Shown piece after piece: positions 2,543 to 9,255 of a stretch of 37,185 nt of DNA (its first letter is position 1; each line of letters opens with the position of its first letter). Position numbers and translations under genes: made by a program. The DNA comes from a virus. The notes beneath the pieces are model-generated. The model ran no database searches and was not told where the DNA came from. It saw only the letters and a list, made by a program, of their open reading frames with translations. The stretch lies in IMG/VR virus record IMGVR_UViG_3300010211_000052, positions 1 to 37,185 of that record; one strand, given 5' to 3'.

Positions 2543-2854
2543 ATGAGCGATATCAAGACCGTGACCTTGGCCCGCCCCATCCCCTACGGCGACGGCAAGA
2601 CCCTGGACCGGCTGCAGTTCCGCCGCCCCAAGGCCGGCGACCTGCGCGGCATCCGCCTGGCGCGCATCGACGACGCCGACGTGAACACCATCCTCACCCT
2701 GGCGCCGCGTCTGTCCATGACCCCGGTCAGCGAGGGCCAGCTCGCCGAACTCGACCCGCCCGACTTCGTGGAGGTGGCCGGGACCATCACGGATTTTTTC
2801 AGGCCCTTGAGTACCCCCTCCCGGACGACGCAAGAACCGCCTGGGGACTGCTGA
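2543..2854 (+). CDS. E: Tail assembly chaperone, short form (P2 E-like)
   Basis: 103 aa. In P2-like phages gpE and its frameshifted extension E+E' are tail assembly chaperones that bind the tape measure; they are not part of the finished tail. The N-terminal half (IKTVTLARPIPYGDGKTLDR, then RRPKAGDLRGIRLA and APRLSMTPVSEGQLAELDPP) matches the phage tail assembly protein family around P2 gpE. The ATG at 2543 follows an AAGGAAAA ribosome-binding site. After the slippery TTTTTTC the zero frame runs only 18 further codons to the stop at 2852-2854, giving a short unrelated tail. Position between FII and T is diagnostic. Confidence 0.9.
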   Translation: MSDIKTVTLARPIPYGDGKTLDRLQFRRPKAGDLRGIRLARIDDADVNTILTLAPRLSMTPVSEGQLAELDPPDFVEVAGTITDFFRPLSTPSRTTQEPPGDC

Positions 2855-2988
2855 TGCAGGCCTTCCCGGGGTCCTTCGGCCCCGACGTGTTCGACGCTCT
2901 CGACCTGGACCGCTATGGCGAGGCCTACGACCTGGCCGTGGAGGTCCTCACCGCCCAGGCCGACGCCCTGCGCGCCGACACTCGATAG
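2543..2988 (+). CDS. E+E': Tail assembly chaperone, frameshifted long form (P2 E+E'-like)
   Basis: Predicted -1 frameshift product. Translation starts at 2543, reads the zero frame through TTC (2798-2800), slips back one base and continues from 2800 in the -1 frame to the TAG at 2986-2988. That gives 86 + 62 = 148 aa. The -1 frame has no convincing start of its own and encodes a plausible acidic helical segment (MQAFPGSFGPDVFDALDLD, then YGEAYDLAVEVLTAQADAL). It ends 9 bp before the tape measure start. This arrangement, E then E' overlapping in -1 immediately upstream of T, is the well-known layout in P2 and many tailed phages. The E' segment itself is divergent. Confidence 0.88.
2794..2800 (+). 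promoter_or_regulatory. Slippery heptamer T TTT TTC for -1 frameshifting in E/E'
   Basis: Zero-frame codons are GAT TTT TTC, so the heptamer fits the X XXY YYZ rule exactly. Slippage joins E to the -1 frame that runs to 2988. P2 uses a run of T at the equivalent place (established for P2). Confidence 0.9.
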
Positions 2989-2997
2989 GACCATGCC

Positions 2998-5472
2998 ATG
3001 GCGGATCTGTCCCTGCGCATCGGTATCGAGGCCCTGGACCGCGCCACCGCGCCCCTGCGGCGCATCCGCGAGAGCACCGGCCAGTTGGGCACGCGCGCGC
3101 GAGAAGCCTCCGAGCGCGTCCGGGGCCTGGAGACCACCAGCCGGGAGTTGGCCACCTTCCGGCGCTTGAAGGAGGAGGCCAGGGCCAACGGCCAGGCCCT
3201 GGGCCGCCTGGACGATGAACTCGCCGAGGCGCGCCGCAAACTGACCGAGGTCGGCCGCGCCACTGGCGGCAGCGGCCGCGCCTTCCAGCGCGCTCGCCAG
3301 CACGTGGCCCACCTGGAACGCCAGCACGAGCGCTTGCGCGCGCAAATGGACAGCAACCGCGCCGCCCAGGACGGCTTGCGCGAGAGCCTGCGCGGCGCCG
3401 GCGTCGACACCGCCCGCATGGCCGCCGAACAACGGCGCCTGCAGGCGGAACTGGAGCAGGCCAACCGCGCCGCCGCCGACCAGGCCGAGCGGCTGGAGCG
3501 TCTGCGCCGGCGGTCGGAGGGTCTGCGCCGCCTGCGCGCCGGGATCTCCGGCCTGGGCCGGGATGCCCGCGCCGTGGTGCCCGCCCTGTCCGCCGTTTCC
3601 GGCCGCCTGTCCGCCCTGGCCGGCATGACCGGCCTCGGCGGCTTGATCAGCGGCGGCATGCTGAGCGCCGGCCTGGGTTCCATGATGACGGACTTCGCCG
3701 ACTCCGGCCGGGAAATCGATCTCTGGGCGGGACGGCTGGGCATGGGCCGCGCCGCCCTGCAAGGGCTGATCGCCGTGGGCGGACGCTTCGGTGTCGAACA
3801 GGACGCCATGATCGACGGCCTCAAGGAACTGTCGCTGCGGGCCGACGAGTTCGCCGAGACCGGAGCCGGCGGCGGCGGCGACGCCTTCCAGCGTCTGGGA
3901 TTATCCCAGGATGATCTGGCCGCCGTGAAAGGCGATACCGCCGCCTTGTTCGAGCTGATCCGATCCAAAATGGAAGGCATCCAGGACGTGGCCGCCCGCC
4001 AACGGCTGGCCGACGAGTTGTTCGGCGGCCAGGGCGGCGAACAGATGACCGAGATGCTTTCCGCCGGCACCGCAGACCTCCAGCGCATGCGCGACGAGGC
4101 CGACCGCATGGGCGCCATCCTGTCCGATGAAGACATCGCCGGCGCTCGCGACCTGAGCGACGGATTGCGCCGCCTGACCGGCATCCTGGGCGGGCTGTCC
4201 AAGACCATCTCCGCCCGGCTGGCGCCGGTGATCACGCCGCTGCTGACCCAGTTCGGCGACTGGATCATCGCCAACCGGGACCTGATCGCCAGCCGGATCG
4301 GCGGAATGGTCGAACATCTGTCCTCGGCCCTGCAGTCCATCGACTGGGGCGCCATCACCGCCGGCTTGACCCGCTTCCGCGACCTGGTGACCGGCGCCGT
4401 GGATCGCATCGGCGGCTGGGACAACGCCTTGATCGCCGTCGGCGCAACCCTGAACGCCGGGCTGATCGGCTCGGTCGCCTCCCTGGGCCTGTCGATCGGC
4501 CGCCTGGGGATCCGTGCCGCCAGCGGCGCCGCGCCCGCCCTGCTGGGGCTCGCCCGCCTGGCCCTGCCGGCCGTGGTCACCGGCCTGGGCCTGCTCAGGA
4601 CCGCCTTGTTGACCAACCCGATCACGGCCATCGTCGGCGGCATTGCCCTGGCCGCCGGCCTGATCATCGTCTACTGGAAGCCCATCGCCGGCTGGTTCCA
4701 GGGGATATGGAGCCGTATCACCGACGCCGCCAGCGCCGCCTGGGGCTGGCTGAAGGACACCCTGGGCTGGGACCCGCTGGCGGACATCACCGGCCTGTGG
4801 TCGCCGATCCGCGAGACCATCGGCGACGTACTGGACGCCTTGCCGGGGATCGCCTCCGCCGCCTGGGACGCTGTCAAAACGGCCCTGTCCTGGTCGCCCC
4901 TGGGAGTGATCGTCACCCACTGGGACCCTATCACCGATTGGTTCGGCTCCATGTGGAACCGCATCACCGGGGTGTTCCAAAAGGCCGTGGACTGGATCAT
5001 GGACAAGATCCAGCCGGCCATGGACGCGGTGACCTGGGTCGGACGCAAGGTCGGCGGACTGTTCGGCGACGACGACGACCCCGCCGGCAACGATACCGAC
5101 GACGACGCTGTTCCCCGCGACGCGCGCGGCCGGCCGATCCGGCGGCGGGGCTTGACGCGCCCGGTGTTCACCGATGGCACCGGCACGCCCCACATCGCCA
5201 ACGACGACGCCGACGACCCTTCGACCGACAAGGCCGCGCCGCTGCGCGTGATCGATACCGCCCCGGCCGTCCAGACCGCCCAGACGGTGGCCGCCGCCCA
5301 GACCACCACCATTCACCAGAGCCGCGACTACACCATCCACGTCAACGGCGTCGGCCTGAACGAGGAGCAGGTGGCCGACCTGATCCGCCGCCAGATCCAG
5401 GACCTGGAACAGCGTCAGGAAACAGCCATGGCCACCGGCGCCGGTGGCGCCCTGTACGACGGAGTGCGGTGA
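2998..5472 (+). CDS. T: Tail tape measure protein (P2 T-like)
   Basis: 824 aa, similar in size to P2 gpT. It sets tail length and is probably released with the DNA. The start MADLSLRIGIEALDRATAPL is the family signature. Residues about 20-185 are charged, heptad-like coiled coil (RLDDELAEARRKLTEV, HLERQHERLRAQMD, RRLQAELEQA). A Gly/Ala-rich stretch follows, with hydrophobic helices around residues 490-560 (LALPAVVTGLGLL, ITAIVGGIALAAGLIIVYW) consistent with membrane-active segments. Two related Trp-rich blocks follow (WKPIAGWFQGIWSRITDA and WDPITDWFGSMWNRITGV). An acidic DDDDPAGNDTDDD patch lies near residue 695. It sits directly after E/E'. Confidence 0.95.
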   Translation: MADLSLRIGIEALDRATAPLRRIRESTGQLGTRAREASERVRGLETTSRELATFRRLKEEARANGQALGRLDDELAEARRKLTEVGRATGGSGRAFQRARQHVAHLERQHERLRAQMDSNRAAQDGLRESLRGAGVDTARMAAEQRRLQAELEQANRAAADQAERLERLRRRSEGLRRLRAGISGLGRDARAVVPALSAVSGRLSALAGMTGLGGLISGGMLSAGLGSMMTDFADSGREIDLWAGRLGMGRAALQGLIAVGGRFGVEQDAMIDGLKELSLRADEFAETGAGGGGDAFQRLGLSQDDLAAVKGDTAALFELIRSKMEGIQDVAARQRLADELFGGQGGEQMTEMLSAGTADLQRMRDEADRMGAILSDEDIAGARDLSDGLRRLTGILGGLSKTISARLAPVITPLLTQFGDWIIANRDLIASRIGGMVEHLSSALQSIDWGAITAGLTRFRDLVTGAVDRIGGWDNALIAVGATLNAGLIGSVASLGLSIGRLGIRAASGAAPALLGLARLALPAVVTGLGLLRTALLTNPITAIVGGIALAAGLIIVYWKPIAGWFQGIWSRITDAASAAWGWLKDTLGWDPLADITGLWSPIRETIGDVLDALPGIASAAWDAVKTALSWSPLGVIVTHWDPITDWFGSMWNRITGVFQKAVDWIMDKIQPAMDAVTWVGRKVGGLFGDDDDPAGNDTDDDAVPRDARGRPIRRRGLTRPVFTDGTGTPHIANDDADDPSTDKAAPLRVIDTAPAVQTAQTVAAAQTTTIHQSRDYTIHVNGVGLNEEQVADLIRRQIQDLEQRQETAMATGAGGALYDGVR

Positions 5473-5474
5473 TT

Positions 5475-5996
5475 ATGCCGTTGATGACCCTGGGCCTGTT
5501 CACCTTCCAACTGTCCACGGTGCCGTTCGAAAAAACCAGCCGCGCCACGGCTTGGCGCTGGCCGTCCCAGGATCGCGCCGGCGCCGCGCCCGCCTATCAG
5601 TTCACCGGCCCCGGCGCCGACACCCTGACCCTCGACGGCGCCCTGATGCCCGAACTGACCGGCGGGCCGGTGCAACTCGACACGCTGCGCAAGATGGCCA
5701 ACGAGGGCAAGGCGTGGATGCTGCTGGACGGACGCGGCCGCAACCGCGGCACCTGGATCGTCACCGACCTGCGCGAGACCCGCACCCACCTGTTGGCCGA
5801 CGGTACCCCGCGCCGGATCGAGTTCACCCTGTCGCTCACCCGATACCCGGACGGCGACATCGATGGGCGCGGGGATCTGGCCGACAGCTTGCCGGGCACA
5901 TTCGGCACCGCCGCCGATCCCGCCGTGGTCCCCCAGGGCGCCCGCTTGGCCGGGGACCTGGCCGGGGCTGCCTCCGACCTGTGGAGCCTGTTGTGA
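5475..5996 (+). CDS. U: Tail completion protein (P2 U-like)
   Basis: 173 aa. P2 gpU acts late in tail assembly at the head-proximal end of the tail. Matching blocks are LGLFTFQLSTVPFEK, WRWPSQDRAGAAPAYQF, ALMPELTGGPVQLDTLRKMA, EGKAWMLLDGRG and the highly conserved ADGTPRRIEFTLSLTRY. ATG 5475 is preferred because a GGAG motif at 5461-5464 is suitably spaced; ATG 5484 is the alternative. It starts 2 bp after the tape measure stop and overlaps gene D by 4 bp. The C-terminal 35 residues are Gly/Ala-rich and variable in the family. Confidence 0.93.
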   Translation: MPLMTLGLFTFQLSTVPFEKTSRATAWRWPSQDRAGAAPAYQFTGPGADTLTLDGALMPELTGGPVQLDTLRKMANEGKAWMLLDGRGRNRGTWIVTDLRETRTHLLADGTPRRIEFTLSLTRYPDGDIDGRGDLADSLPGTFGTAADPAVVPQGARLAGDLAGAASDLWSLL

Positions 5997-6991
5997 GGTC
6001 CGCCTATCGCGTCACCGCCGACGATGTGGACGTGACCGAGGCCCTACGCCGCGACCTCATCGACCTCAAGGTCACCGACAAGCCGGGCCTGGACTCCGAC
6101 GCGGTGACCCTCACCTTGGCCGACACCACCCAACGTCTGGCGCTCCCCCGGCGGGGCGTGCGCTTGCGCGTGGCCATCGGCTGGGACGGGCAGCGGCTGA
6201 TCGATCGCGGCGCCTATCTGGTGGACGAGGTGCGCCACAAGGGCCCGCCCGACACCATCGCCATCACCGCCCGCGCCGCCGACCTGACCGGAGGCCTGCG
6301 GGAGCAGCGCGAGGCCAGCTACCACGCCACCACCCTCGGCGACATCCTGGCCGTCGTCGCCGGGCGCCAGGGCCTCGCCGCCGCCATCGCCCCGGCCCTG
6401 GCCGGGCGCATCATCGGCCATCTGGACCAAACCAACGAGTCCGACGCCCATCTTGTGACTCGCTTGGCCGAGCAATACGACGCCATCGGATCGATCAAGG
6501 ACGGGCATCTGTTGTTCGTGCCGCGCGGCTCCGGCATCACCGCAAACGGCGCCCTGTTGCCGCCGGTCACCGTCGCCCGCACGGCCAGTGTTGATCATGA
6601 GTTTGGGATCAAGGACCGCGAGGGCAAGACCACGGGCGTCAAGGCGCAATGGCGCGACTACGACGGCGCGGAAACCGCCCACGAAATGGCGGGGACGGAG
6701 GGCAGCGTGACCACCCTGAAGCGCGTCTATCCGACGCAAACCGAGGCCGCCGACGCCGCCCAGGCCGCCTTGCGTGCCTTGTCGCGCGGGCAACGCAGCC
6801 TGCGCTTGCGCCTCGCCGTCGGCCGCCCGGAGATCATCGCGGGCCAACCGCTGCGCGTCTCCGGCTTCCGCGCCGAGATCGACGCCGTGGATTGGTCCGT
6901 CGCCACCGTGGAGCACACCGTCACCGCCTCCGGCGGCCTGCTCACCCGCATCGACGCCGAGGAACGCTTGCCTCCGGAAGCGGTGAGTTGA
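5993..6991 (+). CDS. D: Tail/baseplate protein of the P2 D family (late control protein D)
   Basis: 332 aa. P2 gpD belongs to the baseplate-hub family related to T4 gp27 and Mu gp44. Family features are DDVDVTEALRRDLIDLKVTD near the start, GVRLRVAIGWDGQRLIDRG, DTIAITARAADLTGGLREQR, YHATTLGDILAVVAGRQGL, the DAHLVTRLAEQYDA block and the C-terminal VATVEHTVTASGGLLTRIDA. The start is GTG 5993, overlapping the U stop (GTGA), which implies translational coupling. It is the last gene of the tail operon. In P2 the activator ogr follows D; here the next gene runs on the opposite strand and the Ogr-like gene lies in the early operon. Confidence 0.93.
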   Translation: MRSAYRVTADDVDVTEALRRDLIDLKVTDKPGLDSDAVTLTLADTTQRLALPRRGVRLRVAIGWDGQRLIDRGAYLVDEVRHKGPPDTIAITARAADLTGGLREQREASYHATTLGDILAVVAGRQGLAAAIAPALAGRIIGHLDQTNESDAHLVTRLAEQYDAIGSIKDGHLLFVPRGSGITANGALLPPVTVARTASVDHEFGIKDREGKTTGVKAQWRDYDGAETAHEMAGTEGSVTTLKRVYPTQTEAADAAQAALRALSRGQRSLRLRLAVGRPEIIAGQPLRVSGFRAEIDAVDWSVATVEHTVTASGGLLTRIDAEERLPPEAVS

Positions 6992-7016: not shown

Positions 7017-7921
7017 TCACTCCTGCGCGGCAGCGAGGTTCTTCCGAGCCATACCAAGATACGGGACATCCATGGGCAAAAGGATCCCGGCCGCCTGCAT
7101 CCGCTCCATGCGGGATACGACCTCGGTCCAAAGGGGCACGGGGTTCTCTTTGTCCAATCGTGCCAATCTCCAGAGCGAAACCCACACATCCCGCGCCCAG
7201 CCAGCGTTGCCCGGGTCCCGCGCCGCCAGATCACGAGCAATCTCCAATCCGTCCTCATAGGCCGTTAGCGCTGCCGCCAGATCGCCCTGCGCCACACGCA
7301 CATCGCCGATATCCGTCAGAACGGCCGCACGATCGCGATCATCCGGACCGGTCAGGGCCTGCGCAGCTTCGAAGGCCATCAAGGCGCGTGCCGTGTCTCC
7401 AATGGCCATGCGCGCGCGTCCGCAGTCGATCCAGTACCAGACGTTGGTTTGGGCCAACTCCGCCGCTTCGGAGAGGAGTGGTTCGGATTTGCTGTATTCA
7501 AACGGATAGAACAGAGTGGCTTGAACGTATTTCAGGCGCGCTTCCTCTAATCGCAGCGCATCGCCGTCGCGGTAAGCTTTCGCCGTCTGGGCCGAAATCT
7601 GCTCTGCCATGGCCGTGAAGGCAGCCTCGGCATCGCCGACGTTCCCGGCATTGAAGGCCTTGACGGCGGTGTCGATCCTGCCAGCCCATTCCGGCTCGGC
7701 CTTGCGGACTTTGTTGAGTTCGGCCTCCGCACGTTCCAGGCGGTCACGGAGACGAGCAGATTCTTCCGGCGAGTCGTAGCCGTTGGCTTCCGCCCACTCC
7801 TGGAAAAAAGCGCGGTCAATGACGACCCGGGATTGAGCTGTAATAATGGTGTCGCGCCCGGAGGAAACGCTCCCGACAGATAGCGACGCGAACCCGGCTG
7901 TGTCCTCCGCGCCGCCTACCG
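7017..7921 (-). CDS. TPR-repeat segment of an accessory protein, reached by a -1 frameshift
   Basis: On the minus strand this frame has protein-like codon use from about 7921 to the stop at 7017, but the first ATG/GTG/TTG is only at 7610. The part upstream of that Met reads sensibly (GRDTIITAQSRVVIDRAFF, ANGYDSPEESARL, RDRLERAEAELNKVRKAEPE, AVKAFNAGNVGDAEAAF), so it is probably translated by frameshifting from the upstream frame. The remainder is a TPR solenoid (ALMAFEAAQALTG, LTDIGDVRVAQGDLAAALTA, GLEIARDLAARDPGNAGW), a repeat style common in Rhodospirillaceae. The conservative call is a 197-aa protein from 7610. Lying between tail and repressor genes on the repressor strand, it is a probable lysogenic-conversion or defence gene (inference). 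Confidence 0.75.
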
Positions 7922-8356
7922 TTTTCCCGGCGGGGCCGTCACGTTGCGAAGCGTTGCGTCCTGGCCCGCGTCGATCGTGTCCGCCCGGACCCCTTCCGCG
8001 TTTTCGATCAGCACGTCCCGACCGGCACGGATGGTCTCCACATCAATGGCATAGCGGGCCTGGGTCTCGGCGGGCAGGTTTTCAATGGCCTGTCGCAGGG
8101 TTTCGACCAGGGCTTTAAGGTCCCCATCCTGCGCGATTTCAGGCTTGGACAGGTCCTTCTTGATCGCGGCCGCATGGGTTGGCTCGGTCTGCGCATCATC
8201 CAACAGGACCAACGATTTCACGCCGTGTGTGCCCACTAGGCGCGCTTTGATGGCCTCAAATGCGGATCGTCCGGCCCCCTTGGCGAATTCCCCTGCGGCC
8301 CCTTCCGTGCTGACCTGTGCCGCCGCCGTCAGCAGGCTGTACAAAAGATCGATCAT
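7916..8356 (-). CDS. N-terminal segment of the accessory TPR protein
   Basis: 146 aa in its own frame, ATG at 8356, TAG at 7918-7916. The N-terminus is hydrophobic and helical (MIDLLYSLLTAAAQVS), followed by an Ala/Glu-rich helical domain and a C-terminal stretch of short beta-like repeats (IDVETIRAGRDVLIENAEGV, RADTIDAGQDATLRNVTAP). I recognise this architecture as the N-terminal region of large bacterial multi-domain proteins with downstream TPR or NTPase modules, but cannot name a family with certainty. The beta-like repeat style continues past the stop in the -1 frame (GRDTIITAQSRVVIDRAFF), so this is best read as the first half of a 446-aa protein joined at 7922-7928. It is probably expressed from the prophage in the lysogen. 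Confidence 0.75.
   Translation of the reverse strand: MIDLLYSLLTAAAQVSTEGAAGEFAKGAGRSAFEAIKARLVGTHGVKSLVLLDDAQTEPTHAAAIKKDLSKPEIAQDGDLKALVETLRQAIENLPAETQARYAIDVETIRAGRDVLIENAEGVRADTIDAGQDATLRNVTAPPGKR
7922..7928 (-). promoter_or_regulatory. Candidate slippery heptamer G GGA AAA joining the two frames
   Basis: Read on the minus strand, the zero frame is CCG GGA AAA CGG TAG. The heptamer G GGA AAA fits X XXY YYZ, and a -1 slip gives the next codon ACG at 7922-7920, entering the TPR frame two codons before the zero-frame stop. An authentic indel in the A run would look similar. Confidence 0.55.
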
Positions 8357-8557
8357 CGTGCGCCATCCCGCCGTGATTTCACCGGTTGAATGGTGCCACT
8401 GACCTCAGGTGAAAACAATCAATTGTGGGGATCGTGCGCCCGGATACGTTTTGATGCGCCTAGCCATTTTGTGGGGGCAATCATTGGCATCGATCAACGC
8501 TTGCGCGCGTACGCCGACCCCATTACACCCCGGCATTTTTTGGCGTTTGAACCACCC
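8357..8557. other. 201-bp gap between repressor and accessory gene
   Basis: There is no convincing ORF here. Both flanking genes run on the minus strand, so this is the leader of the accessory gene. It is less GC-rich than the flanks. I see no clear promoter and no terminator, so cotranscription with the repressor gene is possible. Confidence 0.5.
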
Positions 8558-9073
8558 TCAAGCCGGGCGTTTATCAGCCGTTGGGTTGGCGGAGGCGGCT
8601 CTTAATCGCCGTCGCAGGGCAATCTGGCGTTCGGCCAGGGCGTCCAGGCGATCGCCGGGATCCGGCGTTTCGTTGGTGATGGCGCTGTACCACTCGGCCG
8701 CCATCTCCCCCAGCGACCGATCGGGAATGGCTTGGCCCTGCGTTCTGTAGACAGCGCGAATGGTGTCCACGATTCGCCCCATGAGATCGCCGTCAAGGCT
8801 ACATGCCTGGACACCGTTCACCACACATTCTGCGCTGCCCGGAATTTGGTGCGACTGTTCCATAAGCATGCTGCCCTCTCCAGTGAGCAGCCAGTGGATA
8901 TTGACACCTCTTTTTGCAATCAGAACAAGAGCTGTGTCTTTTGGAAGGCGTCCAGAAAGTTCACATTTCTGCAGCGTGCTTTCACTCATGCCGATGGCAC
9001 GCGCCATACTTTTTTGCGTCTCTCCTAGGTGGTCACGTATTTTTTGGAGTCTCTCGCCGACATCACTCCCCAT
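8558..9073 (-). CDS. Phage repressor, HTH family (C/CI-type)
   Basis: 171 aa from the ATG at 9073, which has a purine-rich GGCGGAGG ribosome-binding site; longer starts up to 9136 lack one. The N-terminal helix-turn-helix (VGERLQKIRDHLGETQKSMA, then AIGMSESTLQKCELSGRLP) ends in the NIHWLLTGEG motif typical of Bac_phage_CI_repr-type regulators. No S24 peptidase-like catalytic Ser/Lys domain is apparent in the remaining 100 residues, so SOS autocleavage is not supported. It is transcribed divergently from the early operon, as expected for the lysogeny repressor. The C-terminal region (ALAERQIALRRRLRAA) is helical and could mediate dimerisation. Confidence 0.88.
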   Translation of the reverse strand: MGSDVGERLQKIRDHLGETQKSMARAIGMSESTLQKCELSGRLPKDTALVLIAKRGVNIHWLLTGEGSMLMEQSHQIPGSAECVVNGVQACSLDGDLMGRIVDTIRAVYRTQGQAIPDRSLGEMAAEWYSAITNETPDPGDRLDALAERQIALRRRLRAASANPTADKRPA

Positions 9074-9255
9074 ATCAGGCTGCCTCCGCCTCATTGAGCC
9101 GAAGCCGATAAATAATCTGACCGTTAAGGCCCCCAATATTTTTCCGCAAATTCAAACACCTAGAGTCGGAGACATCCTCAGGCGAAACATCAGTCGCGAT
9201 GACACGTAAAAAATGGCGTTGCGTATCACGCCATTTTCGGCGTATCGATTGAGCC
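9074..9255. promoter_or_regulatory. Divergent control region (genetic switch) between repressor and early operon
   Basis: This 182-bp AT-richer spacer separates the minus-strand repressor from the plus-strand Ner-like gene. It should hold the promoters for both and the operators of both regulators. Promoter hexamers cannot be assigned confidently. It contains the inverted repeat described at 9210-9237. Confidence 0.7.
9210..9237. promoter_or_regulatory. Inverted repeat, candidate operator
   Basis: Perfect 10-bp arms AAAATGGCGT (9210-9219) and ACGCCATTTT (9228-9237) flank an 8-base spacer, centred 32 bp before the Ner-like ATG. The symmetric, AT-flanked form suits a dimeric HTH regulator. It lacks the T-tract of a plus-strand terminator. 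GCGTATC also recurs directly at 9221-9227 and 9241-9247. Confidence 0.6.

Follow-up and report, generated by a model that had tools for sequence, protein, structure and literature searches.

A gene for a tetratricopeptide repeat (TPR) protein, carried by a phage and split between two reading frames, is very probably decoded by programmed −1 ribosomal frameshifting. The sequences themselves show a split frame that is conserved in four copies, a slippery heptamer, the position of the stop and the covariation of a downstream hairpin; slippage itself, its efficiency and the function of both products are inferred from them. The gene lies on the minus strand of a 37,185-nucleotide stretch of DNA, referred to below as the window.

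The two frames of the gene are both coding

The 0-frame ORF (8356-7916, minus strand) encodes a helical N-domain of 146 amino acids that ends in ...RNVTAPPGKR*, and is supported by an ORF check and by homologues of the N-part at loci L093, L136 and L140. The −1 frame (7922-7017, minus strand) comprises 301 codons that specify a linker, a coiled coil, TPR repeats and a conserved C-terminal cap. An earlier note, made from this sequence alone, had given the lengths and coordinates of the two frames, and we found them correct when we rechecked them. We also verified its statement that the −1 frame, after an upstream stop at 8045-8043, has no ATG, GTG or TTG until 7610; in the phage copy, this leaves the first 104 codons after the slip site without any of the three. 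Joined, the frames are predicted to give a fusion of 446 amino acids (145 + 301), and the long product would contain the junction-spanning peptide ...NVTAPPGKTVGG....

Codon-usage log-odds favored frame 0 upstream and frame −1 downstream, with a switch within 7963-7916 that brackets the heptamer. The earlier claim of a strong GC bias at third positions was mistaken: GC3 is 0.75 and 0.70 in the two parts, near the GC1 values of 0.70 and 0.68, and several structural genes of the phage reach 0.91-0.96. The TPR gene looks foreign, not strongly GC3-biased. We judge the −1 frame to be coding because of its TPR homology (PF13424, E 6.5e-8, 33.1 bits, which meets the Pfam gathering cut-off of 30.1) and its dN/dS of about 0.15 against the copy at L002 (97 codons compared), and not because of GC3. 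Similarly, pN was lower than pS in both parts of the gene in every pairwise comparison among the phage, G967 and G973 copies.

The split is conserved in bacterial homologues

Six-frame searches within the genera of genomes having close TPR relatives yielded three junction-covering copies, all full-length, all in alphaproteobacterial genomes and 40-50% identical to the phage protein where measured. In G967 (L093), the 0 frame ends in ...ENVKAPPGKR*, G GGA AAA lies at C16:28119-28125 and the −1 frame runs for 632 codons. In G973 (L136), the 0 frame ends in ...KGNTAPGKP*, G GGA AAA lies at C187:32540-32546 and the −1 frame has 585 codons. The G979 copy (L140) has a 0 frame ending in ...RNVTAPPGNA*, G GGA AAC at C257:11074-11080 and a −1 frame that is open to the contig end. 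All four known full-length copies, one phage and three bacterial, are split at the same residue, in phase and in the −1 direction, and six-frame searches able to show an unbroken full-length copy found none. Alignment of homologues had been proposed beforehand as the decisive check; with the split at the same residue and heptamer in all three independent homologues, its outcome supports frameshifting, subject to the caveat that only four copies are known.

Most members of the alphaproteobacterial family defined by the C-terminal cap have TIR-like or membrane N-termini, are encoded without a break and do not reach across the junction. Four alphaproteobacterial TPR proteins (L018, L019, L072 and L076) have TIR-like or membrane N-termini and a related coiled-coil/TPR part or C-terminal cap; unlike the split gene, they are single unbroken frames with other N-termini, and none has the N-domain or the heptamer. 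L018 and L019 carry TIR-like stretches such as KVFFSYAQKDSPRLERLF and KLFISYSRNDDDRIGQLY and long TPR arrays, with repeats common to the phage cargo. The protein at L071 has the middle and TPR part in common, and its N-terminus could be matched to neither frame. L124 (G633), whose upstream part is unrelated, and the chance matches L005 and L006 were rejected.

Among viral contigs, the junction has no close DNA relative. Viral scans with queries P0001 and P0002, the middle part and alignments A3 and A5 returned no relative, the sole match to alignment A1 was a broken TPR remnant (L085), and tblastn of phages and plasmids found no full-length relative. On its viral contig, L085 (1925-3745) consists of a TIR/OmpA-like gene followed by TPR repeats over two frames, and is apparently a disrupted relative of this TPR family.

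A slippery heptamer and an adjacent stop mark the junction

The earlier note had reported a G GGA AAA heptamer at 7928-7922 (minus strand); it is in phase with the 0 frame, and the ORF ends at a TAG (7918-7916), one sense codon past the AAA codon. The genes of the window contain 9 in-phase slippery heptamers in 8006 codons (about 0.0011 per codon), so that about 0.05 would be expected in the 41-codon overlap of the two frames; this rarity alone is suggestive, not decisive. The homologues add to it: an X_XXY_YYZ heptamer is in phase with the 0 frame in each of the four copies, and a stop follows one codon later in all of them (TAG in the phage; TGA, TAG and TAG in the homologues). In G979 the last base of the heptamer is changed from A to C, and the slippery pattern is still kept. 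The phage, G967 and G973 all encode Gly-Lys by GGA AAA, although GGA is a rare codon (34 of the 530 Gly codons of the phage genes, and 1 of 67 in the G973 gene). Among the copies, identical residues have identical codons in about half of the cases or fewer, and nucleotide identity is highest at the heptamer and its immediate surroundings. A conserved Shine-Dalgarno-like stimulator, which is an optional criterion, was absent from the aligned 30 nt upstream of the heptamer.

Heptamers of the form V_VV.A_AA.R are among the shift-prone motifs in E. coli, where earlier tests rated G_GG.A_AA.A inefficient (PMC4066793). G_GGA_AAG, one base off the heptamer of the TPR gene, is highly shift-prone in E. 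coli, and G_GGA_AAC is the g-t frameshift site of the haloarchaeal virus HCTV-1 (PMC5009743). A tRNA-Lys with anticodon CTT is encoded in the window; we speculate that, if the host reads AAG with this tRNA, slippage would be favored more by AAA or AAC.

A conserved stem-loop follows the heptamer

A bulged stem-loop of 13 bp, with a 6-nt loop and a 3-nt bulge, starts 5 nt after the heptamer (7916-7882, minus strand) and is a probable frameshift stimulator. Structures beginning 5-8 nt downstream are typical of effective stimulators in E. coli (PMC4066793). The phage, G967 and G979 copies align without gaps downstream of the heptamer and have in common a 13-bp hairpin 5 nt past it. For these three, RNAalifold gave a z of −5.1, a value matched by 2 of 2000 column shuffles; inclusion of G973 gave −4.9 without gaps and −6.0 once a single codon gap was placed. 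When pairs were counted over the four copies, 90.4% were paired, with double changes at 3 pairs, compared with 29-54% when the partner was slid. The phage hairpin on its own, by contrast, was not exceptionally stable given its composition (z about −0.3 at most lengths), and the G973 hairpin folds less stably than synonymous resampling predicts. Single-sequence z-scores would thus argue against a stimulator, and only comparison across copies reveals the hairpin. These statistics carry the caveats that column shuffles do not preserve dinucleotides and that four sequences are few. An Rfam search gave no match.

The criterion of a stimulatory structure about 5-8 nt downstream is therefore met, clearly in three copies and more weakly in G973. 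Together, the heptamer, 5-nt spacer, predicted stem-loop and adjacent stop form what is, on paper, a textbook bacterial −1 signal. Programmed frameshifting, the main reading of the earlier note, is thus supported by the split homologues and by a stem-loop that is clear in three of the four copies.

Alternative explanations of the split

Before homologues were known, the default reading was that a one-base indel or an assembly error had broken an ordinary gene in the phage contig. Indels are common in G/A homopolymer stretches and the break falls within one, and L085 is an instance of related TPR cargo broken on a viral contig. Three independent genomes, however, have the same split residue, slippery heptamer, adjacent stop and hairpin; because these features are conserved in homologues, sequencing error and recent mutation are excluded, and we give this explanation virtually no chance. 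RNA polymerase, by adding or dropping a base in the G/A run, would likewise join both frames and give the long product, and transcriptional realignment is suspected at poly-A sites of some transposase families (PMC3711429). Here the run is only 4 A, or 3 A in G979, and a hairpin 5 nt downstream better fits slippage by the ribosome, so that transcriptional slippage is very unlikely. The tracts at which transcripts usually slip are far longer than 3-4 A.

It is also conceivable that no fusion is made and that the C-part is a separate protein, translated from an internal start or by ribosomes that reinitiate past the 0-frame stop. Such modules commonly occur both fused and separate, and a GTG lies 27-31 codons into the −1 frame in the three bacterial copies. 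The phage, however, offers no ATG, GTG or TTG for 104 codons, past the conserved coiled-coil part, so reinitiation there would lose all of these codons; no suitable ribosome-binding site was seen ahead of the ATG at 7610, and the conserved in-phase heptamer and hairpin would be left unexplained. We accord separate synthesis only a slight chance. Most ribosomes would terminate at the TAG, and TPRs are far fewer in the phage than in G967 and G973, as might be expected if only the short N-domain were functional and the −1 part were a relic; this is highly improbable given the purifying selection on the C-part and the open −1 frame kept in all four copies.

Predicted products and possible function

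If the gene is decoded by programmed −1 frameshifting, ribosomes starting at 8356 would translate the N-domain of about 145 amino acids. With the bulged hairpin 5 nt ahead, a fraction would slip back one base at G GGA AAA (7928-7922) and add 301 further codons, and the remaining ribosomes would terminate at the TAG one codon later. By analogy with phage G/GT, we predict that the short N-domain protein is abundant, that the long protein is rarer and that the signal sets the proportion between them. The recoding most likely serves an assembly built from two products at a fixed ratio. More speculatively, the N-domain may assemble and the TPR arm may recruit or sense a partner, with the phage copy serving as cargo expressed in lysogeny.

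The short form, a helical N-domain of about 130-145 amino acids, gave a single-sequence AlphaFold model with pLDDT 75 and pTM 0.63. It has no match in Pfam, PHROG or PADLOC, and a fold search of the PDB returned nothing significant. The long form consists, by sequence, of the N-domain, linker, coiled coil and TPR array; the structure model of the TPR part is poor (pLDDT 55). A hydrophobic, possibly transmembrane segment directly follows the junction in the G979 copy.

The gene had also been proposed to act in lysogenic conversion or defence; its position makes this plausible, and the role itself has not been shown. PADLOC defence profiles gave only weak TPR-level matches, so the criterion of a match to a known anti-phage system was not met. 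We offer as a tentative possibility, doubtful at present, that these proteins are an uncharacterised alphaproteobacterial and phage family of TPR sensors or scaffolds, in which frameshifting would set the ratio of self-assembling N-domain to TPR-armed protein, and that the phage uses its copy for lysogenic conversion or defence. If so, a bacterial immune or regulatory assembly would be subject to programmed recoding.

Relation to known frameshift systems

Among bacterial genes with good evidence of frameshifting, transposases, tail chaperones, dnaX and prfB predominate. In lambda G/GT and P2 E/E', as predicted here, a −1 shift close to the end of a short ORF yields much of a short protein and little of an extended one. 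Unlike those genes, the TPR gene has no chaperone sequence similarity, lies on the opposite strand between hub and repressor, has homologues at chromosomal loci and encodes a TPR protein. It fails the test for a tail chaperone, with no significant PHROG match and a location other than between tube and tape-measure genes. The phage has its own E/E' pair (2543-2988, plus strand), located before the tape measure at 2998 and away from the TPR gene; its in-phase T TTT TTC −1 site (2794-2800) is a built-in control.

Transposase cassettes of the IS3/IS1 type have the same X_XXY_YYZ heptamer and downstream stem-loop, and both G_GGA_AAA and G_GGA_AAC are present among IS elements (PMC4066793); in contrast, no transposase domain was found in the TPR gene and its product is unrelated. 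The evidence is of the same kind as that for −1 candidates in Enterobacteriaceae (69 clusters, PMC4066793) and for GeneTack clusters (PMC3711429), namely a conserved heptamer, frame direction and a predicted hairpin in non-mobile genes. Neither 'TPR' nor 'tetratricopeptide' occurs in the main text of the GeneTack paper (PMC3711429), which does not cover its supplementary lists.

This kind of mechanism is already known; the gene family that uses it appears undescribed in the literature searched. A conserved cassette in an accessory TPR family, common to a phage and to chromosomes, would be an additional non-structural case of frameshifting, and the four copies are a ready comparative set for asking why double products in a fixed ratio are useful. 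They also serve as a warning, as such genes resemble pseudogenes in annotation and are probably discarded.

Genomic setting

A P2-like phage, with sheath, tube, tape measure, gpD hub, CI-like repressor, CII-like gene and primase, occupies the left part of the window. The next gene upstream of the TPR gene, on the same strand, encodes the CI-like repressor (8558-9136, minus strand; PF07022, E 1.1e-5), and the convergent neighbor encodes the gpD-like tail hub (5444-6991, plus strand; PF05954, phrog_52). In the hub ORF, about 180 residues without a Pfam or PHROG match precede the gpD-like match, possibly through a fusion or an overlong start. Because the related phage contig L020 has other accessory genes in the hub-repressor interval, we infer that this interval is a variable cargo site. 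Accessory-gene hotspots that include anti-phage systems are reported for E. coli P2-like phages (PMC9122126).

The earlier description of the gene as prophage cargo needs qualification, as two of the three homologous loci adjoin ordinary genes of the chromosome. The G967 copy is flanked by aminotransferase/dehydrogenase genes on one side and ilvD on the other, a truncated copy at L002 has the same ilvD neighbor, and the G973 copy lies among housekeeping genes. Since these copies adjoin chromosomal genes, we infer that the phage gene is one version of a gene that chromosomes have as well. Downstream of the TPR gene, L002 (697-900) and L093 (about 8300-8500) have a similar stretch, translated as ...PPTARL.RRAQIVSKPITVFFV.NQASGAD..., which is perhaps an intergenic repeat.

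The window is probably a bacterial fragment with two neighboring prophages. Its remainder (16457-37185) contains the tRNA-Lys gene, then host-like genes (a DUF2478/DUF364 protein and moaA) and, from 21962, a T7-like podovirus module with connector, tail fibre and terminase. The nearest relative of the DUF2478 protein, 47% identical, is in G052.
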